A stretch of DNA of 64,000 nt from a virus. The stretch's first letter is position 1. Each line of letters starts with the position of its first letter. This document shows, in pieces, positions 14,250 through 64,000 of this stretch. The notes beneath the pieces were generated by a model, which saw only the letters and a program-made list of their open reading frames with translations, ran no database searches and had not been told where the DNA came from. Where the stretch lies: positions 1 through 64,000 of the IMG/VR virus record IMGVR_UViG_3300050821_017219. One strand, given 5' to 3'. The position numbers and the translations under genes are program-made.

Positions 14250-14274
14250 ATTCAAAGACGTATCTAAAACGCCG

Positions 14275-14481
14275 ATGAATTTGTCGAGACAAACGCAGCT
14301 TCTCGTCGATCAGGCGAACACCATCAAGGCCGCCTACGACGATCTACTGCAACAAATCAGACGAGATGGCCGCTTCGACTTCAGCGCGGCAGTAAAAGCC
14401 GCCGACGTGGAGATGCGCTGGAAGATAGCGCGACTCGCCGCACTAGAGGCTATCGCCAAAGACGCCGAGATAGAGGTTTGA
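14275..14481 (+). CDS. Small helical protein (68 aa)
   Basis: A charged, fully helical protein between two fibre genes; the next gene starts at the base after its stop. Possibly a fibre chaperone or connector by position only. Confidence 0.5.
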   Translation: MNLSRQTQLLVDQANTIKAAYDDLLQQIRRDGRFDFSAAVKAADVEMRWKIARLAALEAIAKDAEIEV

Positions 14482-17121
14482 TTGAGTGCCAACGGCCCCC
14501 CCGGTAATCCCCAGCTCGATGTGCTCCGTGCTCGCGTAGCCATCGGCGGCATCGGCGGGGGTGCGTCCGGCCCTACCGGTGCGACGGGTCCGGCCGGTTC
14601 ACCAGGGGGAGCGACGGGCGCAACTGGTGCCCCCGGAGCAACAGGCGCAGGCGCAACCGGAGCAGTCGGGGCTACAGGTGCGATCGGCGCTACTGGCGCA
14701 GTCGGGGCAACTGGCGCTACCGGCTCTGGCGCTACCGGGGCAACCGGAGCAACAGGTTCCGCCCCTCTCTTTTCGATCACAAATCCAGCGTTTGCGGGAG
14801 GCGCCAGCGCCGCTGCCACACCGACGCAGAACGTCGCCGCTATCAATGCGACAATCGCGGCAGCAAATGCCGCGGGGGGCACGGTCTATGTCCCGAACGA
14901 TCCGGCCGGGGCATACCGCATCAACGCGCCGATCTCGATCCCTCATGACACGGTGATCGTCGGGGAAGCCTCGTCGATCGGTACGCCCAAAAGCGTATTG
15001 CAAGCGGCCGTTGCTATGCCGGCCATGCTGCAAGTTGAAACGCAGCAAAATCAAACCCTGCCGACCCCTGCGCAGATCCGCGCGATCACGCTCGACCAAA
15101 ATCTTCTCGCGATCTGGGGCATCGATCGCCGAAGTGACCTCTCGAGCCGATATAGCAGTGTGCAGTGTCGTAACGCGCCGCTCGATGGCTTCCACTCGAG
15201 CTCACATTCGGTGGCCGTCGCGATTTCGGCTATCGTTCCGGGCGGTGGCGCTGGCGCAGGACAGCTCACGCTCTCGCAACCGGATGTCAGCTACGCGGGC
15301 GACATCTCAAGTTCGGGTACGCACTACGCCATCAAGTTTGTGGTCGCTGGAGGGTACGGCGTCGGGCAATTCGTACTGTCGCAAGACGGGGGCGTAACCT
15401 TCGCTACGGCGCGGCAGACAGTCCAGGCCGTCTCCAATCTCATTGTGACACAGGCTGCTCAGTATACCCACGCGATGGGGTTGCAGGCAACCTTTGCCAA
15501 TATCGTATACGGTCTCAACTGGACTTATACATGGACGGCCACGGGTGGGCTTGAGCCCAACACGAGCAATACGACAATCAACGCGCTCGTGCGCTTCGAC
15601 GATTGCTCTGTCGTCAATCTCGGTGTGGCGTATTGCTCGGACGCCGGTACGCGCGCGATCTACAGCAATCTTTTGGCTCAGGCCTTCACGACTGGTGGGA
15701 CCGTCACCTCGACGCCAGGCTCGCAGCTCTTGGTCGGCACCGGGACGGCGTTTCTCACAGGCTCGCAACCGAATTTGGCGCCTCGACCCGGCGATACTAT
15801 CTGGCTGAATAACAGCCCGGCGGACCCTCGGATCGCCAACTTTCAGATCCTCGCCGTCATGGACGACTTCACGGTGGTCGTATCCGTGGGCGATGCCCCC
15901 AACTTGCCCGCCCTCGCGGGTGTGCACTTCGCGCTCGTCGTCGGAGCCGGCTGCTACGTCACCGATGGCGGCGACAACATCGGAGAGGCTTGGCACGACG
16001 GCTACATGGAGACGGTCGCCAATGGTTGGCGGCTAAGCGGCGTCTCGCCCATGAGCCTCTATAGCCCATTTCTCGAAGCCGACTCCGCCGGTATTGGCGT
16101 GGGGATTGGCGGCCAGATGAGCGCGGGTGCTCAAACTATCGTACAAGCGCCCTACATCAAACTATCAACGCAAGGCCGCCAGTATTACGTCCAGCAGGCT
16201 TCCCTCTGCGAAATCATCGACCCCGAGGGGCCGTTCGGGCCCGATGGGCTAGGGGGCTCGGGCTTCGCGCGCGTCACGTTCAACGGCCAGCCGTACGCCT
16301 ATAACTTCGTCCAGAATGACTTTCAACCCAAAGCCAATTTGGTTTTGCAGGCAAGCGTCGTCTCGGTCACTGTGCCCAATCAAGTCCTCGTCGGCCCTCC
16401 CCTCGATGTGTTCCAGGGGGGCGCCACGGCGTACACGGTGCTTGTCCCGAATGCGGATTACATCGGGACGGCCAACACGCCGCTTTTGCCCGCGCCGAGC
16501 GTGCCCGGACAGCTTTGGCTCATCGAAAATCAGTTGAACAGCGCTCACGTCTTCGAGTTCTTCGATAACGGGACATTCGGGGCATCTCACCTGAACCTGG
16601 CGTGTCAGTCGCTTTTTATGTTTCCGGGCGAGCGGATGCTACTCGTCGCCTCGGAGGTCGCCGGCTCTGTTGCCTCGTGGCAGATCATGGGGGACGTCCA
16701 GCGGAGCTACCGCGGCCAGAGCGGCGAGGGAAGCAAGTGCGGGCCGGGCTCGGGCGTGGCGATCGGCGTCGGAACGATCAACGTGCAGCTCTGGGACGTC
16801 GTGTTTGTTCCAACGAGAGGTTTTGCCGCAAAGCTCAACGTCAGCGTCAAGGACGCGGCATCGGCCTCGTTTGCGTGTTGGCTCGGCTGCACGGTGGGCG
16901 TCGACGGCACGGGGGCCATCATCGGGCAATTCGTACCGACGACGCAGGCGCAAGGCGCCTTCGGCAGCAACGCGGGGCTGCCCCCCGTCGGTTGGGCAAT
17001 GCAATTCGCTATCGTAGTAATCGGGGGCAGTAACCAAGTGGCTGCGCAGGTGACAACGACAGGCGGCATCACGGCAAAAGCGCTTTCCCAGAGCGAGCAG
17101 ATCGCTGCATACCCAATTTAG
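14482..17121 (+). CDS. Collagen-like tailspike with beta-helix domain
   Basis: An 879-residue protein. The TTG at 14482 follows the preceding stop directly. The N-terminus contains LDVLRARV, a relative of the RRARV tag. Residues 30-93 are GXY repeats. Residues 105-150 contain the start of a pectate-lyase-3-like right-handed beta-helix (AINATIAAANAAGGTVYVPNDP), followed by some 500 residues of beta-rich sequence and a separate C-terminal beta domain. This architecture is typical of phage spikes that bind or cleave polysaccharides. Catalytic residues cannot be assigned by eye. Confidence 0.75.
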   Translation: MSANGPPGNPQLDVLRARVAIGGIGGGASGPTGATGPAGSPGGATGATGAPGATGAGATGAVGATGAIGATGAVGATGATGSGATGATGATGSAPLFSITNPAFAGGASAAATPTQNVAAINATIAAANAAGGTVYVPNDPAGAYRINAPISIPHDTVIVGEASSIGTPKSVLQAAVAMPAMLQVETQQNQTLPTPAQIRAITLDQNLLAIWGIDRRSDLSSRYSSVQCRNAPLDGFHSSSHSVAVAISAIVPGGGAGAGQLTLSQPDVSYAGDISSSGTHYAIKFVVAGGYGVGQFVLSQDGGVTFATARQTVQAVSNLIVTQAAQYTHAMGLQATFANIVYGLNWTYTWTATGGLEPNTSNTTINALVRFDDCSVVNLGVAYCSDAGTRAIYSNLLAQAFTTGGTVTSTPGSQLLVGTGTAFLTGSQPNLAPRPGDTIWLNNSPADPRIANFQILAVMDDFTVVVSVGDAPNLPALAGVHFALVVGAGCYVTDGGDNIGEAWHDGYMETVANGWRLSGVSPMSLYSPFLEADSAGIGVGIGGQMSAGAQTIVQAPYIKLSTQGRQYYVQQASLCEIIDPEGPFGPDGLGGSGFARVTFNGQPYAYNFVQNDFQPKANLVLQASVVSVTVPNQVLVGPPLDVFQGGATAYTVLVPNADYIGTANTPLLPAPSVPGQLWLIENQLNSAHVFEFFDNGTFGASHLNLACQSLFMFPGERMLLVASEVAGSVASWQIMGDVQRSYRGQSGEGSKCGPGSGVAIGVGTINVQLWDVVFVPTRGFAAKLNVSVKDAASASFACWLGCTVGVDGTGAIIGQFVPTTQAQGAFGSNAGLPPVGWAMQFAIVVIGGSNQVAAQVTTTGGITAKALSQSEQIAAYPI
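14569..14760 (+). repeat. Collagen-like GXY coding repeat
   Basis: About twenty Gly-X-Y triplets, mostly Gly-Ala-Thr and Gly-Ala-Val/Ile, forming the shaft of the spike protein. Confidence 0.8.
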
Positions 17122-17148
17122 CGTCTGAATTCCGAAAGCAAAATTCCA

Positions 17149-18042
17149 ATGGCAGTCGACCATCCCTTCGTTCGTCGTTCCCGCGTCGCCAACGTCGCTC
17201 TCACCGGCGGAAGTGGCGGCGGTGCCACCGGCGCTTCAGGTAGCAATGGAGCGACTGGCGCTACCGGCTCAAACGGAGCGACAGGTGCGACCGGCGCGGG
17301 GGTAACCGGCGCGACGGGCAGTGCTGGCGCTACAGGATCTCTCGGCGCAACCGGCGCGACCGGAAGTGGAGCAACAGGCGCTACCGGAAGCCAAGGCGCG
17401 ACGGGACCTGGCGCAGGGGCGACCGGGGCTACGGGAGCGACCGGACCGGCCGGCGTTGGCGCTACAGGTGCGACTGGAGCGGGCGTTACGGGAGCCACCG
17501 GAGCCGTAGGCGCAACTGGGTCGGCGGGGGTCGGAGCAACCGGTGCAACTGGCGCAGGAACGGTCGGTGCGACTGGCGCAACGGGCGCGGGCGGCGCAAC
17601 AGGCGCTGCTGGTGCAACGGGGGCGGGCGGGGCCACCGGAGCTACGGGGGCGACACCCGCCGCGACGCTCGTTCAGACCACAAGTGTTTCTAGTGGAAAT
17701 ACGGGGCTAACAACGACCGGCCAAACTCTCACTTCTGTAGGGATTACAATAGCGACTGGGCAGCGCGTCTTTATTTGGGCCTCTTGCTCATCGCAAATCA
17801 CTGCGGGCGTCACATCGACGGCTACCTACAAAATCACGCGAAATGGAACTCAACTTCAGGCGGCGGTGTTCCATAACCAGACCAATGCGGCTACGAGCAG
17901 CACTCCGGTATGTATGTTCGCTTTTGATACTGCGGGCGTAGCCGGTGTGCAGACCTACGCCTTTGTCGGAACGACGAGCGGTGTCAACGGTGACATCACC
18001 GCGATCGCACCGGAGATGATATTCTTCATCACTACTGTCTAA
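17149..18042 (+). CDS. Collagen-like fibre protein (297 aa)
   Basis: The N-terminal tag [12 protein letters not shown] is followed by a long collagen-like shaft (about residues 24-168) and a C-terminal beta domain of about 125 residues ([20 protein letters not shown] onward) that looks like a small trimeric head. Weak GAAAG ribosome-binding site. A surface-exposed fibre is the natural reading; the receptor is unknown. Confidence 0.75.
17218..17652 (+). repeat. Long collagen-like GXY coding repeat
   Basis: The longest GXY tract of the window, about 48 triplets with Gly-Ala-Thr dominant and a few Ser, Asn and Pro substitutions. The opposite strand reads as an open Ala-Pro-Val repeat, which is an artefact. 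Confidence 0.8.
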
Positions 18043-18077
18043 TCGGCTCTAGAAGGTTTCAAGAAAGCAAATACAAA

Positions 18078-19820
18078 ATGGGTCGTTCAACGCTACTTGT
18101 CCGTCGATCTCGCATCAGCGTCGATCCCTCGCCGTCGGGTGGAGGCGGAGGGACGGGGGCCACCGGATCTCCCGGCGCGACCGGGGCCAACGGCGCTACG
18201 GGTGCGACCGGCGCCGGTGTCACGGGAGCGACGGGCAGCGCGGGGGCGACCGGTTCTGCGGGAGCCACGGGGGCTACGGGAGCCGGAGTGACCGGTGCAA
18301 CCGGCTCGCAAGGTGCGACCGGACCGGGCGGTGGTGCGACCGGCGCTACAGGCGCGACCGGAAGTAATGGTGCGACGGGCGCTACCGGAGCCGGTGTTAC
18401 TGGCGCTACCGGCGCCGCTGGAGCTACTGGCGCGGCGGGCGCTGGAGCAACCGGAGCGACGGGGGCAGGTACAGCGGGAGCTACGGGAGCAACTGGGGCA
18501 GGCGGGGGCGGTGCCCTCACGGCGTTCGGAGCGGACCTCGTTGGGTCGGCTGCGACAACGCAGTGGATCGCATCGATCAGCGGGCAAGGTGGTACTGGCG
18601 GGACCGTTCCCATCGGAGGGTCCGCCAATACGGTGATGCAGTTCCGGGCCGGCGCCGTTCAATCTTCGGCGGGGCTTTCGCAGGCACAGCAGACGAGTGA
18701 CATCCCGACGGTCGACCTCGTCTTCGGGTCGCAGCGAGGATTCGCGACTGCAACAGGAACCAACCGCACCGCGGGCAGCATCGTCGCTGCGATTCCAGCG
18801 GTCACCAACGCTGGTACGGCTGCAGGGGCCTTCCGTGTGACGGAATCAGGCGCTGGAGTCATCGCCATCGCGCCTGGAGGCTTCGGGCAAGCGCCAACGT
18901 CTGGCGCTGCTGCTGCCGCAATTTGGTTGAACCTCACTCGCGGTACAGAGTCCGGTACGAACTACTCCATCGCAGCAAACTCTATCAATACGACCGTAAA
19001 TGGAGTCTCTACCGTTCGTCTCGACGTCGCTGGTTTCGATCAGCTTTCCATGACGTCGGTTGGTGCGCAGTTCTTCCGCACCAACGGAACGGTCGCATTC
19101 GGCGGTGGGACCGGCGGAATTATCTCGATCGACAGCTCAGCGATCGTCCCACCGACGGCACTTCCGACGACTGCGGTGCTGGTTTACGCCAATACCGGCT
19201 CCCCAGGCAGCCTAGGGCTGATGGCGACGGGGATCCAGTTCAACAAGACGCTCGGGACGGTTACCGCAACGATCGGATCGGACGGACCCACGACGGATGT
19301 CATACCAAACGGCATCCTAGTGCAAGCGGCATCGGCCTTTGCTGCTGCAGTCACCAACACCACTGGTGGGTCGGTGATTATCGCTGCTGGGGCCGCCTCT
19401 GCGCTCTCCAACGGAACGCAGATCTCACTGTCCGGCGGGGTCACCGGTGGTGGTGTACCCACCAATCTCGGGACGGTTCAGTTCCGAACGTCGGGCGTCG
19501 GCGGCAACTTGTCGGACCCATCGACGCTGTCGGTACCGTTCGCGTGGATCACGGCGCCGTCGTTCTCCATCGCGTCGGGTGGAACGATTACCCTCTCGGG
19601 CGCGCAGGCGGCATCGCCGGTGCTGACGATGACTGGGACGACGGCCGGAACGACGATCGCGTTTCCGAACGTTCCTGGCTTCTGGCTAGTCGACTTCAGC
19701 ACCGTAACAGGTCCGCTCACCTTCACGAGCGGATCTGGAACGACGGCCGCGTTGACGGCAGTGGCGGGAGCCATCGTGACCGTCGTCACCATGGGTGGAA
19801 ACAGAATCCGCATCAAGTAA
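18078..19820 (+). CDS. Collagen-like fibre protein (580 aa)
   Basis: Begins [19 protein letters not shown], the clearest copy of the shared N-terminal tag. Residues 23-150 are GXY repeats; the remaining 430 residues are Gly/Thr/Ser/Ala-rich beta strands suggestive of a long repetitive beta structure. Last gene of the rightward fibre operon; it converges with a minus-strand gene 21 bases away. Confidence 0.75.
18144..18515 (+). repeat. Collagen-like GXY coding repeat
   Basis: About forty Gly-X-Y triplets, mostly Gly-Ala-Thr, forming the shaft of the 580-residue fibre protein. Confidence 0.8.
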
Positions 19821-26304: not shown

Positions 26305-27858
26305 ATGGCCGGAACACTCATCGTTCGTCGAGCTCGCGTCGTCACCAACGTCGGCTCGGGTAGCGGCAACGGCGCAACCGGCGCAACTGGACCGGGCGGA
26401 GGCGCGACTGGACCGACGGGGGCGACAGGTGCAACCGGGGCCGTCGGCGCATCAGGTGCCACGGGTGCTTTCGGTGTCACCGGCGCTACGGGGCCGACCG
26501 CACGCACGCCGCTTGGCGCAGTCAGATTCATCGATCCATCCAACTCATCTGGCCTGGCGTCAGACAGCAACAACGGCGCAACCAACGTAACGCCAATTCT
26601 GACGACAGCGCATCTCAATAACCTTCTGTTCTTCAAATCGCTGACGGCCAATACGACGATTACGTATATGAGCGACGATCTTAGCGGCGTTGGGTTGGAT
26701 TATTCAACGATGGCGTTGGGCAATTTCAACTTGACGTTTCAGATGACGCCGGTCGTTACGCATACGGGTGGAACGCTCAACGCCGGCACGGTCGCGATCA
26801 ATCCGTTGGCGGCGTCTGGCGGTCAACGCCAAGTCGTTCATACTTCCGACGTTGTGACGTTCAATCCGTTTGTCTTTACAGGATTGGGCGGAGCGTCGGC
26901 GCATCCACAACGACTCGTCGCGACGAGTGGAGGCGACGTCAATACTGGCGCGTGGATCGTCTCAGCAACAACCCCAGCTTCGCCGTCGATGTCTCGGTCA
27001 ATCACGCCTGGTGGAACCAACGGCAATCTAACGATTGGCGACACCTACAAGATTCAGCGTGGGGGGATCATCAACGTCACGCAAGGCCAACCTCCCACAC
27101 AAGACGCCGGGCCGTCTGGAGGTGGCGGTGGTCTAGTGTTCTTCAACGACGCCGCCTTTGGCCTAACGAGCTGGGGCATCGGAGGTATACAATACGCCCG
27201 ATGTAGCTTTGAGAATTCACTTGTCGTTGCTGCGGGTCTTACCGATTGCTTCGTCGGCGCTGGTATTATCGAGATTCTACCGATTGGATCTATCTCGATG
27301 ACAGCCGGTGTTCTTGTGACGACTATCTTCGATTTACTTCATTCGTCCATTAGTTTTGCTGACGATACGTACATCACCGGATCAGCCTTTATTCTTTCGG
27401 GCAACGTCTATGGTAGCGTAACGGCTCTGCCAGGTAGTGGTAACGGGATTCAAATCCAAGATATGACGAACCCTACCGGCGCGCTCATCGTTTTGACCGC
27501 CATCCCGTTTGCGAATCAGACGGGGTCGCCGTCGAACCCGCTCATCTGGGGAAACGGTAACGTCGGACCGGGTATCACGATCGGACCGGGAGCGTGTATC
27601 ACGGTGGCTGACGAGGTTGGGGTTGTACCGAGCGTCACCGGAACCGGCGGAGACTTCGCATTCATCGCCGAAAATAGCGGACCGCTTGTGACGGTAGCGC
27701 GCGCTTGGAACAACGCGACGGGCGCCTACACGGAAGCGGGGGGCGTTGCGACCAGAACGACGACCTGGGCGCATTTCGCTGCTAGTATCTCCCCCGGTGG
27801 CGGTTTTCTCTTTCAAGCGCATAACGTAGCGACAGCAGCGTCAATCATTGCGGTCTGA
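26305..27858 (+). CDS. Collagen-like fibre with beta-helix region
   Basis: A 517-residue protein beginning MAGTLIVRRARVVTNVGSG, the shared fibre tag. Residues 22-68 are GXY repeats. From residue 70, VRFIDPSNSSGLASDSNNG is a typical entry to a right-handed beta-helix, followed by long beta-rich coils. Paired with the upstream transglycosylase-like gene; probably a receptor-binding or depolymerising spike. Confidence 0.75.
   Translation: MAGTLIVRRARVVTNVGSGSGNGATGATGPGGGATGPTGATGATGAVGASGATGAFGVTGATGPTARTPLGAVRFIDPSNSSGLASDSNNGATNVTPILTTAHLNNLLFFKSLTANTTITYMSDDLSGVGLDYSTMALGNFNLTFQMTPVVTHTGGTLNAGTVAINPLAASGGQRQVVHTSDVVTFNPFVFTGLGGASAHPQRLVATSGGDVNTGAWIVSATTPASPSMSRSITPGGTNGNLTIGDTYKIQRGGIINVTQGQPPTQDAGPSGGGGGLVFFNDAAFGLTSWGIGGIQYARCSFENSLVVAAGLTDCFVGAGIIEILPIGSISMTAGVLVTTIFDLLHSSISFADDTYITGSAFILSGNVYGSVTALPGSGNGIQIQDMTNPTGALIVLTAIPFANQTGSPSNPLIWGNGNVGPGITIGPGACITVADEVGVVPSVTGTGGDFAFIAENSGPLVTVARAWNNATGAYTEAGGVATRTTTWAHFAASISPGGGFLFQAHNVATAASIIAV
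26368..26508 (+). repeat. Collagen-like GXY coding repeat
   Basis: About fifteen Gly-X-Y triplets in the shaft of the 517-residue fibre protein. Confidence 0.75.
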
Positions 27859-31704: not shown

Positions 31705-32123
31705 GGGTTCTGGTCTGCGGCGGTCGCGACTATCGCGGCATCGAATGCGTCAACGCGACGCTCGATCGCCTCCACGCCGTCTACGGCATCGAGGTGGTCA
31801 TCCATAGCGGCGTCGGTAGTCTTACTGATTTTTACGCCGGAGGATGGGCGACTCATCACGGCGTTGGCCAGCATGTTTTTCGCGCAGATTTCAGAAGCTA
31901 CGGCAAGTCTGCCGGCCCGCGCCGCAACGCCGAGATGCTCCGCAAAGGGAAGCCTGACCTGGTCGTGGTCTTCCCGGGGAGATGCGGAACGCGCGACATG
32001 TTTCACAAGTCGATCCGCGTCGGTGTCGCTGTCGTCGAAATAATGTCGTCGCGCGTCGTAAAAATTCATGGCGAGGCCGTTCGATACGCGCGCGCCTTCG
32101 CTGAAGAAAAGGCGACGCCATGA
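31701..32123 (+). CDS. DUF2493/YspA-like SLOG protein
   Basis: A 140-residue protein with the canonical DUF2493 order: MRVLVCGGRDYRG, then EVVIHSGVGSLTDFYAGGWA, then ADFRSYGKSAGPRRNAEML, then PDLVVVFPGRCGTRDM. The family adopts the SLOG fold; ligands are probably nucleotide-like. Phages often carry these genes with unproven roles. Coupled to its paralogue and to the next gene by ATGA overlaps. Confidence 0.8.
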   Translation: MRVLVCGGRDYRGIECVNATLDRLHAVYGIEVVIHSGVGSLTDFYAGGWATHHGVGQHVFRADFRSYGKSAGPRRNAEMLRKGKPDLVVVFPGRCGTRDMFHKSIRVGVAVVEIMSSRVVKIHGEAVRYARAFAEEKATP

Positions 32124-32254
32124 CGCTGCCGATTTTTTGGATGATTCTGCTGCTCGGCGCCTTCGCTATCGTTTTCTGCGGTCTGCTGATCTGGCTGTCA
32201 TTCGTCGAGACGAAGTTTTTAGACGGCTCCAACAAAAACGGCGACGGCGAATGA
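32120..32254 (+). CDS. Small single-TM protein (44 aa)
   Basis: ATGA overlaps at both ends. One long hydrophobic segment (IFWMILLLGAFAIVFCGLLI) then a polar acidic tail with Asn and Gly. Placed directly before the primase-helicase gene. Confidence 0.5.
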   Translation: MTLPIFWMILLLGAFAIVFCGLLIWLSFVETKFLDGSNKNGDGE

Positions 32255-33966
32255 CCGCCGCCAACCCGAAACGGCCGTCACCCCTGGCGGCTGCGGCAGC
32301 CATCGTTGACGACGACAGCAACGCCAACGGCGGCGACTTCGACGGCATCAGCGGCATCGTCGCTAAAATTCAACAACAGAATCAATCGTCGACGACTCCG
32401 ACTGCTTCTGCTTCGACACCGCCACCAACAACGCCGCCGAAGCAACGCCAGCAGCCACCGGCGAACACCAAGCGCTTCGCGAAGACCGACACCGGCAACG
32501 CCGAGCGACTCGCCTACTACTTCGGGCAGCGCTTCCGCTACGTCGAGGAGTGGGACGAATTTCTGGTCTGGCGATCGACCCACTGGCAACGCGACCCCCA
32601 GCACGTTCGGGTGGAGGCGTTGACGAAGGAGGTCATCGCCAAAATTCGCGACGAAGCGCGTGGCTTCGGATCAACGACAGCAGAAGGTCGCGCGCTCTAC
32701 GCATGGAGTTTAGAAAGTCAGAAGCGGGCGAAGCGTCAGGCGATGGCCGCGCTCTCCCGAAGCGAGCTGGGGGTAGCCGTCTCCCACGAGAAGTTGGACG
32801 CCAACGCGTGGCTGCTGAACGTCAAGAACGGCGTTTTAGATCTACGCAGCGGTGAACTGTCGCCGCATCGACCGACCGACTTGATCACACGCGTCGCCGA
32901 CGTCAGATTCGATCGCAAAGCTAAAGCCGAAAATTTCAAACGATTTCTGTCGCGTGTGTTGCCGGATGAAGAGACGCGTCTATTTTTGCAGCGCTTCATC
33001 GGCTACAGCCTCACGGGGGATGTGGGGGAGCGCGTTTTCGTCGTTTGCTACGGCGGTGGCCGCAACGGCAAGTCGGTGTTGCTGCGCATCATCCAAGCGA
33101 TGCTCGGCAAATATTCGACGACCTGCGCGCCTGGTCTTTTGATGGCGCGCAAGGATGAAGCTCACCCCGCCGACGTCGCCGACTTATTTGGCGCGAGGTT
33201 GGCGGTGGCTTCTGAAGTCAAAAAAGGCCGAACGTTCGACGAAGAGAAGGTCAAGCGCATCACCGGCAACGACATGCTCAAGGCGCGGCGGATGCGCGAG
33301 AATTTCTGGGAGTTCTTGCCGACGCACAAGATCATCTTGGCGACCAACCACAAGCCGAGGGTGGCGGATGCGACCGACAGTTTTTGGGACCGCATCGCGC
33401 TCATCCCGTTCGACGTGCGCATCGACGATGGTGAAGTCGATCGAAGTCTCGCCGAGCGTCTGATCAAGGAGGAGCTCTCCGGCATCCTTACGTGGGCGAT
33501 GGAGGGCTGCTTGGCGTGGCAGAAGGAGGGGCTGCGCATCCCGAAGGCCATCGTCGACGCGACGCGGGAGTATCGCGCTGCCGAGGACGTCGTAGGGGGC
33601 TTCGTGGGCGAACGCTGCTTGTTCAGCACCATTGAGTTTGAGTCGATAGCGACGCTCATGGCGGCGGCGCAGAAGTGGTGCGCGACCAACGAACGCTTTC
33701 CCTTCAGCAAAAAAGACCTGGGCGAGTGGTTGAAGCAGCACAAGTGCATCGAGGGCCGAGATAAAGCCTGCAAAGTGCGTGGATGGAAGGGAATTCGCCT
33801 ACGAACGCTCTCCGAAATGGCTCCAGACGTTCAAGACGTTCTAGACTCAAATTTACCCTTATCGGTAGGATCGGGAGTTACAGATCCCAATACGCGCGCC
33901 ATAGGTAAAACAGCGTCTGAAACGGCTAGAACGTCTAACGCTAAAAAAGGCGATAAAATCAACTAG
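32251..33966 (+). CDS. D5/P4-type primase-helicase
   Basis: A 571-residue SF3 helicase of the poxvirus D5/phage P4 type. After a low-complexity Thr/Pro/Gln N-terminus, a D5_N region precedes Walker A GGGRNGKSVLL (about residues 268-278), a Walker B-like RLAVASEV and the sensor/motif C ILATNHKPRV. A C-terminal DNA-binding module (about 460-512) contains AAAQKWCATNERFPFSKKDL and GWKGIRLR. A catalytic primase domain is not evident at the N-terminus, so it may be helicase only. Replicative helicase is the expected role. The start overlaps the TM gene. Confidence 0.88.
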   Translation: MTAANPKRPSPLAAAAAIVDDDSNANGGDFDGISGIVAKIQQQNQSSTTPTASASTPPPTTPPKQRQQPPANTKRFAKTDTGNAERLAYYFGQRFRYVEEWDEFLVWRSTHWQRDPQHVRVEALTKEVIAKIRDEARGFGSTTAEGRALYAWSLESQKRAKRQAMAALSRSELGVAVSHEKLDANAWLLNVKNGVLDLRSGELSPHRPTDLITRVADVRFDRKAKAENFKRFLSRVLPDEETRLFLQRFIGYSLTGDVGERVFVVCYGGGRNGKSVLLRIIQAMLGKYSTTCAPGLLMARKDEAHPADVADLFGARLAVASEVKKGRTFDEEKVKRITGNDMLKARRMRENFWEFLPTHKIILATNHKPRVADATDSFWDRIALIPFDVRIDDGEVDRSLAERLIKEELSGILTWAMEGCLAWQKEGLRIPKAIVDATREYRAAEDVVGGFVGERCLFSTIEFESIATLMAAAQKWCATNERFPFSKKDLGEWLKQHKCIEGRDKACKVRGWKGIRLRTLSEMAPDVQDVLDSNLPLSVGSGVTDPNTRAIGKTASETARTSNAKKGDKIN

Positions 33967-39676: not shown

Positions 39677-39940
39677 ATGTCTGAAAACCACGACAACGAT
39701 TCGTCTACGCCGAAGAAGCTTCACGGCTTCGCAGCTTGGTCGAAAGAGCGTCAACGTGAGGCTGCCTCGAAGGGCGGTAAGACCGCTCACGCTCTGGGTA
39801 CAGCTCACAAATTCTCTGGCGACGAAGCGAGAGAAGCCGGCCGACGCGGCGGGTTGGCCATCGCAGCGAAGAAGCGGCGCATGAAAGAAGAAGCAGAATT
39901 GAAGACATTCGTCGAAATCGAAGAAACGACGCCGCGATGA
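39677..39940 (+). CDS. KGG-repeat (YciG-like) stress-type protein
   Basis: An 87-residue protein with the KGG family pattern: GFAAWSKERQREAASKGGK, then GTAHKFSGDEAREAGRRGG. Bacterial KGG proteins such as YciG are small, hydrophilic and stress-induced; the function is not established. The last third is a charged helix. Good GGAG ribosome-binding site. Confidence 0.75.
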   Translation: MSENHDNDSSTPKKLHGFAAWSKERQREAASKGGKTAHALGTAHKFSGDEAREAGRRGGLAIAAKKRRMKEEAELKTFVEIEETTPR

Positions 39941-40848: not shown

Positions 40849-41019
40849 ATGCCTGACGAATTGGTGGGTCAATCAGAAGGATTCGATCTTCATCGAATTC
40901 TACTGATCCTAGGTGGAATGGCCTTCGTTATGCCGTTCTCGGTGGCATTCGTCTATTCTCTTGCGTGGCTAGTAAAGCGAGTCGACAACGAATTGTATCG
41001 TCGTGGTTACCGCAAATGA
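40849..41019 (+). CDS. Small membrane protein (56 aa)
   Basis: One or two membrane segments (RILLILGGMAFVMPFSVAFV) with a basic C-terminus. Its TGA overlaps the ATG of the polymerase gene (ATGA), which fixes both genes. The role beside a polymerase is unclear. Confidence 0.6.
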   Translation: MPDELVGQSEGFDLHRILLILGGMAFVMPFSVAFVYSLAWLVKRVDNELYRRGYRK

Positions 41020-43586
41020 ACGCCCTTCCAACCGGCGTCGCCTACGACGCTCGCGCGCATCTCGCCGAATGCGATAGGTGTCCGCTCGGTGGGAATGTTG
41101 TCGTTCCCCCCGACCCCCCGCGTCGGGCGTTGAAGCTCATCGTAATTGGCGAAGGCCCAGGCCGTTTAGAAGAACGATACGGAAGAGCCTTCGTCGGTCC
41201 GAGCGGCAAGATGCTCGATGCGGCGCTGCTCGAAGCCGGCGGCCATCGCCAAAACAGCTACGTCACCAACGTCATGCTTTGCCGCGTCGACGACGACAAG
41301 CAGATGGATGCAGCCATCGCCTGTTGCGCGCCACGTCTCGCCAAAGAATTGTCTGAATTGCCATCAGACATACCGATTCTATCGCTTGGCGCTGGCGCCT
41401 CTCGGATGACCATCGGCAAGTCGGGCATCCAAAAGTATCGCGGCTTCGTCTGGAAGGCGCCAGAGATAAAACAACAACAGATAAGAAATGCTGAAAGGCT
41501 TTACGAAAAACGCATCGAAAAAAAGCGAAGCCTCAAAGACGTCGAGAAGGCGTTGAACAGCTGGACGATTCTGAAGGCGAGACAGCAGATTCAAGGCCGA
41601 ACCGTTATTCCGACAGTACATCCGGCCTACTTGCTTAGGGGTGCAGACGGGTGGTATCCGATCTTCCGCGTGGACGTCAAGCGCGCCATCGCCTTGTCGC
41701 TGAATCCTCATACGATTCTCGAAGATGAAGGCGCGTTCGTCAAGACGACGTCGCCGAAGGAGGCAGCAAAACTACTCCGAGGCTTCTCGCAAACAGTCTT
41801 GGTCGACATCGAGACCGACGCCCCCGACGCCATGCGAGCCGGCATCACCTGCGTTGGCGTCGCCGACGTCGGCGATCCGACCAAGATTGTCGTGATGGAT
41901 CGCCGCAGCGAAAATCATCCGTGGCCTCGTGGCTTCATCAAAGTGTTGAAGCGATTCTTGCGCCGCCGAACCGTCGTCGGCCACAACATCAAAAACTTCG
42001 ACGAGCCGGTATTGAACCGCTACGGCATCTTTCTCGGCAGCGTCGAGGATACACTAGTGGCGCATCGAAGTTACGCGAGTCATTTGCCGCAGTCGCTGGC
42101 GCACGTAGCTTCGGTTTATTGCACGAGCGCGCCGTGGAAGTTGAAATTCAAGACGTCGGAAGAGAAAGGAGCGGTCGCTGGGTTTGGCGTCAAGGCAGAG
42201 GACCTCGCCATGTACAACGCCGCTGACTGTAGGCTCAACGCCTTCGCTTGGTTGCGGATGCAACCCGACTTGAAGCGAGAGATGAGCGTCTACCGCGACG
42301 ACACGGCGATGGCGGGGCTGTTCAGCCAGATGCAGCGGACCGGATTGCTTGTCGACGTCGAGAAGCAGCGTCAGCTCTCCAAGAAGTTGAAGCATCGCGC
42401 CGCCGCTTTGGTAGGTGAGATGCGCCAACTATTGCGCCGCCGCCAATTCAGCCCCGGTAAAACGGCCGACATCCGCAAGGCGTTGTACGGTCAGCTGAAG
42501 GCACCGCTTTGGCTCGCCCCGCCAACCCCCACCGGCCTTCCATCGACCGCCGCCATCGTCTTGGAGGCCCTAAAGGAGAGCGACACGCGCGCCGGCAAGC
42601 TCGCCGACTTGATCATCCGCTGGCGCTCCGCCAATGACAGCCGCAGCGAATACTTGGACGTGTATGTTCACCCTGATGGCCGCGTCAAACCAAGTTGGGG
42701 GCAAGTCGAAACTGGGCGGCCCCGCACGCGTGGGCCGAACATCCTCAACATCCCCCGCATCGCTTTCTGCTCGGGTTGCGGCGCGAAGCTGCTCGACGGC
42801 GTCATCCACAAAGACACCTGCAAAAAACGAGACGTACCGCAACCGGAGGAGATGCTCCGCGACATCTACGTTTGCGCGCCGGGGTGTAGCTTTGTTTACT
42901 ATGATATTTCTCAGGCGGAGATGCGCCTAGCGGCCTATCTGTCTGATGACGAAAACTTCATCGCGTCGTGCGCGAAGGATATCCATACGGAGAACGCATG
43001 CGTGTTGTTCCCCGATGGCGCCGACTTGATCAGAAGTGATCCGCAGGGTCGAGGCAAGAAGTTCCGTGAGATCGCAAAAAGCTGCGGTTTCGCAGTCAGC
43101 TACCTCGCGGAGGCGCCTAAGATTTTCGCTACGCTCCGAGGAAAAGGTTTCGACGTGTCGATGGATGACGTCGAGACGATGCTCGACAACCTTCGCTCGT
43201 CCTACCGGCGCTACTACGCCTACGTCGAAGGCAACGTCGAGTTTTGCCGCAAGCATGGGTTTCTCAGAACGCCATTCGCCGGTCGGATCAGGTGGCTTGG
43301 TTATTTCCCCCGACCTACGCAGGTGGCCAACTTTCCGATTCAGTCGGGCGTCGCCGACATCGTCAACCGACGGCTCTTGGAGATGGAGAAGAGACGCACT
43401 AAAAACGCTCGGTTGGTCGTCTACCACTACGATGCTGCGATCTACGAGACGCCAGCTGCGGAGGTCGAGACGATGAAAGGTCTCATCAAGGAATTGTGGG
43501 AGGAACCGGTGGTCGTTCCGACGAACGGGCGCAGCTTCGTACTACCGATTGAGCTCAAAGATGGGAGTAGGTTGAGTGACTTCTGA
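41016..43586 (+). CDS. Uracil-DNA glycosylase / family A DNA polymerase fusion
   Basis: An 856-residue fusion. Residues 1-225 are a family 4-like UDG with Fe-S cysteines (C19, C22, C89, C103 or C104), GEGPG (45-49), FVGPSGKMLD and HPAYLLR (from 202). Residues 255-410 are a DEDDy proofreading exonuclease (DIE 264-266, NIKNFD with D329, YNAAD 400-404). Residues 430-856 are polymerase: ILNIPR, motif A DISQAEMR (630-637), motif B from R679, motif C YDA at 805-807, where the usual HDE has lost His and Glu but kept Asp. A Cys/His insert (C585, C588, H598, C602) lies before motif A. ATG 41016 is chosen over GTG 40965 for the ATGA overlap. It would copy DNA and remove uracil. Confidence 0.9.
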   Translation: MNALPTGVAYDARAHLAECDRCPLGGNVVVPPDPPRRALKLIVIGEGPGRLEERYGRAFVGPSGKMLDAALLEAGGHRQNSYVTNVMLCRVDDDKQMDAAIACCAPRLAKELSELPSDIPILSLGAGASRMTIGKSGIQKYRGFVWKAPEIKQQQIRNAERLYEKRIEKKRSLKDVEKALNSWTILKARQQIQGRTVIPTVHPAYLLRGADGWYPIFRVDVKRAIALSLNPHTILEDEGAFVKTTSPKEAAKLLRGFSQTVLVDIETDAPDAMRAGITCVGVADVGDPTKIVVMDRRSENHPWPRGFIKVLKRFLRRRTVVGHNIKNFDEPVLNRYGIFLGSVEDTLVAHRSYASHLPQSLAHVASVYCTSAPWKLKFKTSEEKGAVAGFGVKAEDLAMYNAADCRLNAFAWLRMQPDLKREMSVYRDDTAMAGLFSQMQRTGLLVDVEKQRQLSKKLKHRAAALVGEMRQLLRRRQFSPGKTADIRKALYGQLKAPLWLAPPTPTGLPSTAAIVLEALKESDTRAGKLADLIIRWRSANDSRSEYLDVYVHPDGRVKPSWGQVETGRPRTRGPNILNIPRIAFCSGCGAKLLDGVIHKDTCKKRDVPQPEEMLRDIYVCAPGCSFVYYDISQAEMRLAAYLSDDENFIASCAKDIHTENACVLFPDGADLIRSDPQGRGKKFREIAKSCGFAVSYLAEAPKIFATLRGKGFDVSMDDVETMLDNLRSSYRRYYAYVEGNVEFCRKHGFLRTPFAGRIRWLGYFPRPTQVANFPIQSGVADIVNRRLLEMEKRRTKNARLVVYHYDAAIYETPAAEVETMKGLIKELWEEPVVVPTNGRSFVLPIELKDGSRLSDF

Positions 43587-53706: not shown

Positions 53707-55047
53707 GTGACAACGACGCCGCATTGGCCGCAGGTAGTGGTGCCGCGCCGTGTCGGTGTCGCCGGTCTGACCGATTTTGAGGCGCACTTCGCGTCCGACC
53801 CCAACTTTGCGTCGGCGTGGAACGATGTCGGTGGCCAGCTCCTCGCCGAAGGCGCTAGCAGCTCGCAGGTCGACCAAGCGAAGACGTGGTTCGTCAACGC
53901 CGTCGAGGGAGCTGTCCCTGGGGTAACCGGCGACCAGGCCATCGCCTCCGCGAAGCAGCTCGTGCTGCTTGGGCAGACGGTCATGGGCGCCGTCGCTACG
54001 GTGCAAGGTCTTCTCCAGACCGTCGAAAGTGGGTCGGTCCCACAAATTACGCAGGCGTTTACCGGCGTCTTGATCAGCCTCGGCGTCGGCACTGGGTTAG
54101 TCTCGGCCGGTATCGGCGCGGCCATCGCGCTCGGCATCTCCGTCGTGTTGGCGGCGCTTCAAGACCTTGGATTTTTTACTAGCAACGCCCCTCCGACATT
54201 TGACATCCCTGGGTGCGGCAAGTGGTACTGGGTGCCGGACTACCTCATCGGATGCATGGGCGTTCAAGCGAAGGGCGGCACTGCCAACGATCCGCTCTTG
54301 ACGCAACCCTTTCATGTCGCGCCGGGCTCCCCCAACTGGCGGACGTTCCCGGTGCCGGGCAACATCATCCCATACGTCGAAGGCGCGGACAAAGAATGGT
54401 ACGTCCCTGGGTTGGGGATGGTTGGCCACTGGAAGGGCATCTTCATCGACTACGGCGCCGTCGATGCAAGCGATGGGCGGCGGCCGATCGATCGCGCGTT
54501 TCCGAATTTTCGGCAGCTCGAAGCGGACAGCGGACCGGGAGCAAGCGACTTCCAGCGCGCGTTCGGTGGCGCATGGCGAAGCAACGCGGAGTATGCGTTC
54601 AACGGGTTGAAGCCGCAGCCAGACGAACAGGTGCTGCTCCATACCATTCGATTGTGGAACCGTTCGCACGATGGCCCCGCAGTTACGCTCGATCAAAGCA
54701 ACGCGACCTACGCCAATTCGCTCGTCGACGCCGCCGTCAACAACGTGATGTCGAGTGACATCGGTTTGCTGTCTGGCCAAAGCTTGCTCGTCAACGCCGG
54801 TGGGTTGAAAACCCAAACGCCACGTGTCGTCACGCTGCATCTAGGCGGTAGTTTCGATTCAGCGACGTCGCCAACAACCGGCCTTATGTCGTCGACGGGT
54901 GGAAAAATTCTCGCGGGTACAGCTGCAATCGGCGGCGCCGCACTGCTCGGAAGCGCGGCGTACGCCTTCGCAAAGAAAGAGAGCATCGGCGCCGTCTGGA
55001 AGAACGTCTTCAAGACGGTGACGAAACCTCTGAGAGGTGGAAGATGA
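53707..55047 (+). CDS. Putative virion membrane protein (446 aa)
   Basis: A 446-residue protein. Residues 115-155 contain two hydrophobic stretches (GVLISLGVGTGLVSAGIGAA, IALGISVVLAALQDLG). A central soluble domain (CGKWYWVPDYLIGCMG onward) is rich in Trp, Pro and Asn. A C-terminal membrane segment (ILAGTAAIGGAALLGSAAYA, about 399-418) is followed by a basic end (KPLRGGR). No family recognised; it begins the run of TM proteins. Confidence 0.6.
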   Translation: MTTTPHWPQVVVPRRVGVAGLTDFEAHFASDPNFASAWNDVGGQLLAEGASSSQVDQAKTWFVNAVEGAVPGVTGDQAIASAKQLVLLGQTVMGAVATVQGLLQTVESGSVPQITQAFTGVLISLGVGTGLVSAGIGAAIALGISVVLAALQDLGFFTSNAPPTFDIPGCGKWYWVPDYLIGCMGVQAKGGTANDPLLTQPFHVAPGSPNWRTFPVPGNIIPYVEGADKEWYVPGLGMVGHWKGIFIDYGAVDASDGRRPIDRAFPNFRQLEADSGPGASDFQRAFGGAWRSNAEYAFNGLKPQPDEQVLLHTIRLWNRSHDGPAVTLDQSNATYANSLVDAAVNNVMSSDIGLLSGQSLLVNAGGLKTQTPRVVTLHLGGSFDSATSPTTGLMSSTGGKILAGTAAIGGAALLGSAAYAFAKKESIGAVWKNVFKTVTKPLRGGR

Positions 55048-55841: not shown

Positions 55842-56240
55842 ATGACGAAGAAACATCAGACGTACATGATCGTTGGTGGCGTCGCGCTCGCGGCGCTCGC
55901 CGTCGGTGGCATCGCCTACGCGCGCATGAAGGCGGCAGCGCCTCCAGTTCCTGCCGGTCAGCTTCCCGCCGGGACCCCCGCGACCACTTTCACCGCCGGT
56001 ACGAAGTACACCTTCGCCGCCGTCCTCCCCGCGGGCGCGACCGACCAGGCGACGCTCGTGACGATGCTCCACACCGCAGGGTGGCAGACGCCTGCGGTCA
56101 TCTTCTTCGGTCCGACGAACACCGGAACGATTCCGACCGGTCTCGAGGCCAACACGTCGGGGTACGTCGCGACGGGCATTTGGCAGGGCCCCGCCACACC
56201 GGTACCGGCGGGTGTCATCGCTGTCGTGTCGCCTCCGTGA
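55842..56240 (+). CDS. N-terminal-TM protein (132 aa)
   Basis: Residues 8-27 (TYMIVGGVALAALAVGGIAY) form an N-terminal membrane segment after a Lys-containing tip, then a Pro/Ala linker and a beta-rich domain of about 90 residues. Signal-anchor topology would place the domain outside the membrane. Overlaps the next gene by GTGA. Confidence 0.6.
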   Translation: MTKKHQTYMIVGGVALAALAVGGIAYARMKAAAPPVPAGQLPAGTPATTFTAGTKYTFAAVLPAGATDQATLVTMLHTAGWQTPAVIFFGPTNTGTIPTGLEANTSGYVATGIWQGPATPVPAGVIAVVSPP

Positions 56241-58489: not shown

Positions 58490-58515
58490 TTGTCAAGCGC
58501 TTTCGCTGCTAGACT
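58486..58515 (+). promoter_or_regulatory. Promoter TTGATT-N18-TAGACT, leaderless type
   Basis: TTGATT (58486-58491) and TAGACT (58510-58515) have an 18-base spacer, near the sigma-70 norm. TAGACT ends seven bases before the ATG at 58523, leaving no room for a ribosome-binding site. Confidence 0.5.
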
Positions 58516-58522
58516 GACACCC

Positions 58523-58999
58523 ATGGCGAAGAAACCCGAGCAAGACCGCGCTCTCATCATCGTCGGCATCGTCGGCGCTGCTGCGGTCGTCGGAGGGGCG
58601 CTCTACTTCGCCTTCACGTCGCAGCCGAAGACAGCGACGGCATCGCAGGCCAACCCCACCCCGACGCCGCCAACGACCGACACCGCTTCGGCGACTCCGC
58701 CAACGCAAGCGCCGTCGTCGACGACTTTCGCGATGCAAGTCACCGGCGACACGTCGATCGCGCTGAAGAGCGGTGAATCTGTCGCGCTTTCGTTGCCAAC
58801 CGTTCCTGCGCCAGCGGCGATGTGGCAGGTCGTCATGGAGAACCACGACGGTCGTGCGGAATACACGGTGGTGGATGCGACGCACTTCAACGTGATCGCA
58901 GAGATGCCCGGCGTTTCGGTGCTGCGGTTCACCCCCATCAGCGCGCAGGGCGGATCGATCGGCCTTCCTGGCCTCAACATTACGCTGTCGATCAGCTGA
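58523..58999 (+). CDS. N-terminal-TM protein with beta domain (158 aa)
   Basis: MAKKPEQDR is followed by a membrane segment (ALIIVGIVGAAAVVGGALYF), a Thr/Pro/Ala linker and a C-terminal beta domain of about 90 residues. The start at 58523 follows a leaderless-type promoter. Overlaps the next gene by one base (TGATG). Confidence 0.65.
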   Translation: MAKKPEQDRALIIVGIVGAAAVVGGALYFAFTSQPKTATASQANPTPTPPTTDTASATPPTQAPSSTTFAMQVTGDTSIALKSGESVALSLPTVPAPAAMWQVVMENHDGRAEYTVVDATHFNVIAEMPGVSVLRFTPISAQGGSIGLPGLNITLSIS

Positions 59000-59460: not shown

Positions 59461-59727
59461 ATGGACATCAATGGCGGCGCTAAGGTAGGGCTCGCGACGG
59501 TGCTCGGAGGCGGCGCCGGTCTCGTCTTCGGGTTCTTCGTCGGTGAAATCCTCGACGTGAAACGTCCCGGTCAAATGTCGCTGGCGTTGGCGGCGCTGGG
59601 TGGGCTCACCGGCGCGATGGTCGGCGGAACCTTTGTCGCTCCGACGCCTGCGTCACCGACAACTCCGGCTCTGCAGCCCATCGCTTCGACGGCCGTGACG
59701 ACTCCGCCGACGCCTGCGACGCCGTAA
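59461..59727 (+). CDS. Gly-rich two-TM protein (88 aa)
   Basis: Two hydrophobic segments (LATVLGGGAGLVFGFFVGEI and LALAALGGLTGAMVGGTFVA) separated by a short polar loop, then a Pro/Thr tail. Possibly a membrane curvature or channel-like virion protein; no family. Confidence 0.6.
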   Translation: MDINGGAKVGLATVLGGGAGLVFGFFVGEILDVKRPGQMSLALAALGGLTGAMVGGTFVAPTPASPTTPALQPIASTAVTTPPTPATP

Positions 59728-62042: not shown

Positions 62043-62507
62043 ATGATCATCGTCAAAGGGAAGGCAGTCAGCTTCGACATGGCGAACGGCGACGAAATCG
62101 ATGCGCCAGCGCGCTCGGCGATGTTGCACGATCCGCGCGGCAAATTCTGGCGTCGAAATTCTATTCTTGTTGCGCCATTCAAACGCGGCGGCGGTGGTGA
62201 AGTCGACGGCGACAGCGACTCGAAAGACTATCTCGGCCGAACGCATCTGACGCGCGTCGGTGATGTACCGCTTCCCCCGAAAGAGTTGTCGGCCTGGACG
62301 TACGAAGGCGAAGTGAGCGAGATTTGGTACACGCGTCACGGCGCAAAGTACGGCGGCAAGCGGTTCCGCCACGCGTTCAACAAGTCGTTGCTCGGCCGGC
62401 TCGTGAAGGGAACCGGCAAGGCGCGGCTGTACAGCCGTGGTAGTCTCTACCGATTGGAGCTACCGCGCGGCGCCATTGTCGATGGGAGAGGATTTTTATG
62501 GCCGTGA
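62043..62507 (+). CDS. Hypothetical basic protein (154 aa)
   Basis: Alpha/beta, rich in Lys, Arg and Gly, with GRTHLTRVGDVPLPPKEL and a basic C-terminal half. Overlapped by ten bases by the HNH gene, suggesting insertion of the latter. No family. Confidence 0.55.
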   Translation: MIIVKGKAVSFDMANGDEIDAPARSAMLHDPRGKFWRRNSILVAPFKRGGGGEVDGDSDSKDYLGRTHLTRVGDVPLPPKELSAWTYEGEVSEIWYTRHGAKYGGKRFRHAFNKSLLGRLVKGTGKARLYSRGSLYRLELPRGAIVDGRGFLWP

Positions 62508-63019
62508 TCTGGAAGTCTGTCGTCGGTTACGAGGGGTTGTACGACGTCTCTGACGAAGGACAGATCCGGCGTGTGGCGCCGGGGCGACGTACACACCCCG
62601 GGCGTATCGTTGTCGGTGGCGTCTCGAAGGGGCGTTACCGCATCGTCAAACTCTATCGAGGAACGACGAAGAGCGACTTCCGCGGGTTCTCCGTTCACGG
62701 TCTCGTCGCGGCAGCCTTTCTTGGCCCGCGTCCGGAAAGGGGCGAGGTGAACCACAAGAACGGCATCAAGACGGACAACAGGCTCGAGAATTTAGAGTAC
62801 ACAACCCGCCTCGGAAACGCGCGCCACGCAGCAGTGAACGGGCTGCTCCGAAACGGCGAACGAGTCGTCGGCTCCAAGCTTACGGCCGACAATGTTCGCT
62901 CCATCCGCGCTCTGTCCGCTTTTGGCGTTCCGAAGCGACGGATCGCGAAGATGTTCGGCATCGCGCATTCGACCACGCAAAGCATCATCGACCGTCGTTG
63001 GTGGAAGCACGTCGCATGA
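62498..63019 (+). CDS. HNH homing endonuclease (NUMOD4-HNH)
   Basis: A 173-residue protein. WKSVVGYEGLYDVSDEGQIR at the N-terminus is a NUMOD4 DNA-binding motif. VNHKNGIKTDNRLENLEYTT is the HNH_3 nuclease core. A C-terminal helix-turn-helix (SAFGVPKRRIAKMFGIAHST) gives sequence specificity. Such free-standing homing endonucleases spread between related phages. It sits near the intein and overlaps both neighbours. Confidence 0.85.
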   Translation: MAVIWKSVVGYEGLYDVSDEGQIRRVAPGRRTHPGRIVVGGVSKGRYRIVKLYRGTTKSDFRGFSVHGLVAAAFLGPRPERGEVNHKNGIKTDNRLENLEYTTRLGNARHAAVNGLLRNGERVVGSKLTADNVRSIRALSAFGVPKRRIAKMFGIAHSTTQSIIDRRWWKHVA

Positions 63020-64000
63020 TCGATTATTCGCGCATGATTGACGCCAGCCGCAACGCGCCCGAACACGCGGCATCTGCGCCCGTCTTCTACGAAACAGCGA
63101 AGACGAAGACGCGCGCGCGTAGCCGTCGTTTGACAAAGCGCAAGAAACAAGCTTCACTTACAAAAGCGCGCGACCGGAAATCCACGAACCGTCGTCGTCG
63201 AAGCACCCCAGGGAAGGCTGCATCGATGGCAAAGCGAAGAATGTCGAGAAAGCAGCGCGCAGCGGCGCTGAAGAACCTCAAGAAGGCTCGCTCCGCCCGT
63301 CGGAGCAAAGCTTCTCGGCGCGGGATGCGCGTTCGGCTTCATCGGAAGTCGCCCCGTCGGCGCCGCTACATGACCGGCGGTGGTGTGAAGACGAAGCGTC
63401 GTCGTCGCCGCAAGGCCAAGCCGGAAGCAGAAGCAACACCGAAGCGTCGTCGGCGTAAGTCGGGCGGCAAGCGGAAGTCGGCCAAGCGAGTCGCGGCTGG
63501 CAAGAAGGCCGCTCGTACGCGCAAGCGCCGTCACTCCCGCAAGGGTGGCGCACCGAAACGCCGTCGTCGTCGGTCGCGCAAAGCCTCGGCGGCTCCCCGG
63601 CGGCGGCGTCGGCGTTCACGTCGGTCGTCTCCCCGTCGTCGTCGGCGCAGCCGCAAGACCGGTCGGGCGATGTCGATGCGACTCCCCCGTCGGGCGCGCA
63701 AGGTCTACGTCGTCGCCGCCGAGAAGCGCCGTCGTCGTGGACGCGGCCGTCGTCGTCACGGCGCGATGGAAAATCCGCTCTCTGGCGTCGAGCTGTTCGT
63801 CGGAAGCCTCTTCGGGTTGACCGGCTTCGCCATCGGCGATCTCACCGACCGCCTCATCGCGACCCACGCGTTGACGTTGAAGAGCGCCGCGACCACCACC
63901 ACGCCGGCCCTCTACGCCGACAACCCCCCGACGACCGGCAGCTACGCTGGCCTCTTCAATCCGACGGCGATCACTTCGCCGATGAACCTCCCCCGATGGG
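63016..64000 (+). CDS. Protamine-like Arg/Lys-rich protein with TM, partial
   Basis: Starts in an ATGA overlap with the HNH gene and runs off the right edge (328 residues visible). Residues 33-245 are dominated by Arg and Lys with Ser/Ala/Gly, in runs such as RRRRRRSRRSSPRRRRR, like histone H1 tails or protamines. Then GAMENPLSGVELFVGSLFG leads into a hydrophobic segment (about 252-276) and a Thr/Ser-rich continuation. It would bind and condense DNA while tied to a membrane. Low complexity makes homology claims unsafe. Confidence 0.7.
   Translation, partial: MIDYSRMIDASRNAPEHAASAPVFYETAKTKTRARSRRLTKRKKQASLTKARDRKSTNRRRRSTPGKAASMAKRRMSRKQRAAALKNLKKARSARRSKASRRGMRVRLHRKSPRRRRYMTGGGVKTKRRRRRKAKPEAEATPKRRRRKSGGKRKSAKRVAAGKKAARTRKRRHSRKGGAPKRRRRRSRKASAAPRRRRRRSRRSSPRRRRRSRKTGRAMSMRLPRRARKVYVVAAEKRRRRGRGRRRHGAMENPLSGVELFVGSLFGLTGFAIGDLTDRLIATHALTLKSAATTTTPALYADNPPTTGSYAGLFNPTAITSPMNLPRW

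Follow-up and report, generated by a model that had tools for sequence, protein, structure and literature searches.

A conserved late-block protein of an undescribed viral lineage joins a long polycationic chain to a hydrophobic helical domain and may tether the genome to the particle wall

What is a viral protein for whose first half is a polycation and whose second half opens with a hydrophobic helix? The question was raised by a gene at the end of the DNA stretch analyzed here (the window, 64,000 nucleotides, covers bases 1-64000; the virus record has 78,382 bases, the rest of which were also read; L002:3016-4548 in our coordinates corresponds to record 63016-64548). The reading frame is still open at the window edge and reaches its stop codon at record 64548, so that the full gene, which a preliminary description of the window had seen only in part, could be retrieved; it is a single ORF of 510 codons. 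Its ATG at 63016 overlaps the stop codon of an upstream HNH-type gene (ATGA). The product consists of a polycation of ~250 residues, an NP junction, a hydrophobic helical domain of ~130 residues and a Cys/Pro-rich tail of ~130 residues, and is hereafter called the composite protein. Its features and those of the neighboring late genes are listed in Table 1.

Table 1. The composite gene, the parts of its product and the late genes upstream
Feature	Position	Strand	Remarks
Conserved late protein	53707..55047	+	hydrophobic segments, one near the C-terminus
Small protein, MRRRHGRRNP and hydrophobic helix	55044..55370	+	junction as in the composite protein
Small late protein	55842..56240	+	N-terminal hydrophobic helix
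Small late protein	58490..58999	+	N-terminal hydrophobic helix
Small late protein	59461..59727	+	two hydrophobic helices
Transglutaminase-fold cysteine enzyme, intein-split, C-terminal hydrophobic helix	59732..62035	+	Hint/LAGLIDADG match; hydropathy
Conserved small upstream neighbor	62043..62507	+	in three relatives, 41-48% identity
Composite protein gene, 510 aa	63016..64000, on to record 64548	+	one uninterrupted ORF, also in relatives
Polycationic half, aa 1-250	63016..63765	+	78 R, 33 K, 8 D+E, net +103
Internal Met M71 in M-A-K/G motif	63226..63228	+	invariant in five homologues; purine-rich stretch upstream in all five
ENP junction, basic part to first hydrophobic helix	63769..63777	+	basic-NP-hydrophobic junction also in small membrane-type proteins
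First hydrophobic helix	63778..63867	+	KD19 peak aa 255-273; predicted helix aa 257-284
Second predicted helix, start only in window	63988..64000	+	aa 325-342; structure prediction and alignment

A long Arg-rich frame in DNA of 60% GC, where several shadow ORFs are Arg-rich too, might be a chance reading, or a frameshift might have joined two genes. Relatives were therefore sought in IMG/VR by searches with the neighboring 455-aa protein, both as a single sequence and as a profile. Homologues of the composite protein were found in records L003, L004, L005 and L006/L007, the last two being identical over the stretch compared, which gives four further distinct sequences. Each relative contains one uninterrupted ORF of 500-520 aa with the parts in the same order, located directly upstream of the 455-aa gene. 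All homologues keep the frame, the order of parts and a similar charge, and two of them belong to closed genomes. The C domains of L003 and L005 differ at 13 of 250 amino acids, with 43 further codons changed silently only, as expected under strong purifying selection. The frame, shared from end to end by these homologues, is genuine on this comparison; we rejected the chance reading and the frameshift, whose probability is negligible.

A search of the viral collection that used only the C domain retrieved the same records and no others, the domain being always accompanied by a basic part. No relative of the composite protein was found in PHROGs or among named phages, and no Pfam match, either whole or as separate halves (none at E≤1 for the basic half alone), and thus no Pfam-level homology to adenovirus core proteins V or VII. 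In the relatives the composite ORF is followed directly by a trio of genes for proteins of 455, 249 and 283 aa (48-63% identity). The 455-aa and 249-aa proteins have no match among named phages, nor did profile scans with these two proteins match bacterial or archaeal genomes; the 283-aa protein (L002:6858-7709) has none among plasmids, the sole collection searched with it. The composite protein marks an undescribed, phage-like viral lineage.

The basic half is strongly cationic, of low complexity and nearly free of acidic residues, as are viral protamine-like and basic core proteins. Residues 1-250 contain 44% K+R and 3% D+E. The initial claim of about 200 residues made up mainly of Arg and Lys holds as to the strong basicity of the stretch, "mainly" being slightly too strong: K+R reach 49.5% in residues 50-249. 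The next-highest 200-aa stretch has 21.5% among the called genes of the genome and 31% among six-frame ORFs. In the homologues the basic part contains 31-44% K+R, 2-5% D+E and few aromatic residues, and its net charge ranges from +67 to +103. The R/K ratio drifts freely, from 78R/33K here to 20R/52K in L006. Between L003 and L005, 105 of 238 residues of the basic half are changed, with 49 gap columns added, at net charges of +97 and +99. K or R occupies 119 aligned positions in either sequence and 79 of these in both, 17 of the latter being swaps. Selection seems to keep the charge of the basic half rather than its sequence. Conserved charge, drifting sequence and widely varying shares of Arg and Lys are what one would expect if the chain were disordered and acted through its charge. 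Two elements stay fixed while the rest varies: a leader at the very start (IDYxxxxDxxRxxxPEHAAxA) and the M-A-K/G motif. The Met of the latter, M71, may be a second start giving a shorter isoform, with the reservation that Lys codons alone also make the DNA upstream purine-rich.

The basic stretch is followed, as initially noted, by NPLSG (in full, MENPLSG) and a hydrophobic segment, LSGVELFVGSLFGLTGFAI, with a KD19 value of 1.63. A single membrane segment proved too simple a description of what comes after. Three predicted helices span residues 251 to ~380; outside the window lie the third (aa 348-379) as well as the tail, which is Cys/Pro-rich and ends near WGGYDL. Helices 2 and 3 are less hydrophobic than helix 1. 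The lowest approximate insertion cost of helix 1 is 0.73 on a simplified scale. On the same scale soluble enzymes of the genome cost 2.4-4.9 (PolA 4.2, D5 primase 4.6, Thy1 4.9, Sak4 2.5), two soluble proteins come near to helix 1 (integrase 0.96, DUF932 1.60), and unambiguous spans in other late proteins are stronger, with costs as low as about −2.3. Helix 1 is thus borderline as a membrane span. Structure prediction gave a weak model of the C domain (mean pLDDT 51, pTM 0.40), though scores of 79-87 are reached by most blocks within the three helices. A fold search with this model, uninformative at such quality, returned no match at E≤0.001, and comparison of the C domain with PDB sequences gave chance-level matches only.

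Borderline hydropathy is one of the points in favor of a different role, in which the C domain, with its helices, attaches to the shell from inside and the protein bridges DNA to capsid with no membrane involved, as adenovirus V does (PMC10081844). Charged residues of the C domain are conserved within the helices (E9, D25, D28, R29, R114, K118 and D122); in the alignment a conserved Arg and a conserved Lys lie at the middle of helix 3, and a conserved D..DR closes helix 1. The genetic linkage to the presumed major capsid genes, which follow immediately, fits such a bridge as well, and the C domain could possibly be a soluble capsid-binding domain. On the other hand, the hydrophobic helices are glycine-spaced, the late block is rich in membrane proteins, and the NP junction is common to clear membrane-type proteins. 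A basic run, NP and a hydrophobic helix recur in small proteins of four genomes, including the 55044 protein, that of the ORF ending at record 68359, several in relative G001 and one in G002. NP shows the highest enrichment (8-fold) of all dipeptides that occur five or more times at these junctions, and the motif could be a topology or processing signal. We rate the chances that the composite protein is anchored in a membrane somewhat better than even, and consider the capsid bridge the main rival, a tentative and less probable reading.

The genes around the composite gene bear on the same question. The most conserved late gene comes immediately after the composite gene, and the trio downstream presumably encodes the major capsid or coat proteins. 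One hydrophobic helix near an end is found in the products of many late genes (53707, 55044, 55419, 55842, 58490, 59461, 59732, L002:8366 and L002:8796). By hydropathy, the presumed virion gene block encodes many small membrane-type proteins, a trait of internal-membrane dsDNA phages. The transglutaminase-fold assignment of the 59732 enzyme is accompanied by Transglut_core matches, below the curated cut-off, in two relatives. In this enzyme the intein, which has LAGLIDADG signals, apparently directly precedes the catalytic-type Cys (VSNCDDLA); relatives of 404-470 aa appear intein-free. The HNH-type, homing-endonuclease-like gene (62498-63019) separates the composite gene from the conserved 62043 gene; among the relatives it has a match in G001 only, at a different location. 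Two small KGG-type basic repeat proteins (39677-39940 and L002:9921-10226) and a protein that by eye resembles the GroES co-chaperonin (L002:10247-10756, LGDRIFVKAD...) are conserved in relatives. Collagen-like GATGATG proteins, likely fibers, are encoded at 13656-19820 and 26305-27858.

A cysteine enzyme encoded in the same block would also suit a scaffold or assembly factor, the basic part of which binds acidic lipids or acidic virion proteins in place of DNA or is removed at maturation; processing or start sites might then lie at the NP junction and the conserved M-A-K/G motif. Since a polycation of 250 residues exceeds what lipid binding requires, such a function appears very unlikely.

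What kind of particle might the protein belong to? The record carries an exact 97-base direct repeat at its ends (1-97 and 78286-78382) and relative G002 ends in a 110-base exact repeat; both the record (~78.3 kb) and G002 therefore appear closed. Replication genes are phage-like (PolA, D5-type primase-helicase, SNF2 helicase, Sak4-like protein, Thy1 and a tyrosine integrase). The PolA gene (40965-43586) encodes an N-terminal uracil-DNA glycosylase domain in the same chain. The D5-type primase-helicase (32068-33966) has no match at E≤1e-3 in relatives G001-G003, and the replication helicase thus seems to have been exchanged within the lineage. No terminase large subunit was found in this genome or in the relatives, and no FtsK_SpoIIIE or DUF87 match indicative of an FtsK/HerA-type packaging ATPase was obtained. 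Nor was a virion-type P-loop protein found, the assignable P-loops belonging to replication or nucleotide enzymes. PHROGs profiles compared with 36 late or unassigned proteins revealed no portal, terminase or tail family, tail tube and tape measure included, except for one match of a muralytic-type protein to phrog_196, "baseplate hub". The 51374 protein matches a head-closure-like PHROGs profile (E 3.5e-7, 79/269 residues). By eye, its Gly-rich repeated segments look responsible, and we set the head-closure and baseplate matches of 51374 aside as evidence for a tail. None of the three trio proteins, the capsid candidates, matches a PDB sequence, and the predicted structure of the presumed 455-aa capsid protein (pLDDT 27) is not a usable model. 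From its gene content, the particle would most naturally be membrane-containing and tailless.

As the best explanation we propose, at about even odds of being right, that the composite protein is a late virion protein tying the genome to the particle wall through a lipid-layer anchor. The disordered N-terminal polycation would bind and screen viral DNA non-specifically, by charge alone; in a virion with a membrane, the C-terminal helical domain would anchor the chain in the lipid layer; and the tail, rich in Cys and Pro, would probably contact the shell or another virion protein. DNA binding, membrane insertion, topology, presence in the virion and the virion type itself are all what we infer from the genome, and as the wall that holds the genome lipid is modestly favored over capsid. 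The original idea of one chain that condenses DNA and anchors it to lipid thus survives in part: a conserved chain of polycation and hydrophobic helices, encoded in a presumed structural block, stands, and its DNA and lipid roles are deduced. By arithmetic, balancing the ~156,600 phosphates of a 78-kb genome needs ~1,520 copies of the protein, which makes tethering or partial neutralization as likely as full condensation. The protein could provide substantial neutralization or, at tens to hundreds of copies, tethering only.

The positive-inside rule puts the basic part on the side of the host cytoplasm. Such an orientation is simple to reconcile with a protein that, rather than being a part of the particle, enters together with the DNA or is synthesized in the cell and attaches viral DNA to the host membrane to serve replication or segregation, with its basic part cytoplasmic and its anchor in the cell membrane. 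A tyrosine integrase makes an intracellular maintenance stage conceivable. Against this, the neighbors of the gene in the relatives are a conserved late gene on one side and the presumed capsid gene on the other, which places it in the late block and not with the replication genes, and we regard a host-membrane role as unlikely. For a tether within the virion, orientation matters in another way. PRD1-like vesicle formation would leave the cytoplasmic side outside the vesicle, away from the DNA. A basic part facing the cytoplasm should suit capture of DNA before closure better than pumping into a preformed vesicle. The most radical reading is that a 78-kb genome is packaged without a dedicated motor, the membrane-anchored polycation gathering and condensing DNA on a virus-modified membrane, which closes round it. 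We hold this to be quite unlikely, as it rests on the absence of recognizable packaging genes at the sensitivity used. With two closed genomes in which no known packaging ATPase is apparent, the question of genome entry is directly testable.

In tailed phages cations and polyamines neutralize the DNA, basic proteins being regarded as minor contributors (PMC3281028). If the proposed tether is real, there are prokaryotic viruses with a chromatin-like, wall-tethered genome, held by a protamine-grade polycation with a membrane- or shell-type anchor.

Parts of this arrangement have counterparts in known systems. P23-77-type internal-membrane phages have several small membrane-associated virion proteins, as in the late block described here. 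The P23-77 minor capsid protein VP11 is reported to bind lipid, nucleic acid and capsid proteins; to our knowledge, it is without a long polycation. Internal-membrane phages such as P23-77 also encode packaging ATPases. The Salisaeta icosahedral phage SSIP-1 is tailless, contains an internal membrane and encodes two major capsid proteins and an integrase, but it has an ATPase, and a comparable basic protein is absent among the 19 SSIP-1 proteins examined; it was rejected as a relative, five alignments giving no profile match. Baculovirus P6.9 and other viral protamine-like proteins are Arg-rich DNA condensers, but in contrast to the composite protein they are short and have no anchor domain; the class is mentioned in PMC3281028. 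PM2 (Corticoviridae) likewise has a circular dsDNA genome, and a virus-specific membrane patch is thought to interact with its nucleic acid (PMC6356626). It differs in its ~10-kb genome, its double jelly-roll capsid protein and its P9 ATPase, no counterparts of which were recognized here. The chlorovirus PBCV-1 proteins A278L and A282L are likewise basic and sit on the genome within a virion that has an internal membrane, but they are proteins of a eukaryotic virus, bound to released DNA, and two have kinase activity (PMC3281028). Finally, adenovirus V, VII and mu are also virus-encoded polycations packaged with dsDNA: VII and mu condense the DNA and V bridges the genome to the shell (PMC10081844). 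There, however, the polycations are separate, shorter proteins without a membrane-type domain.
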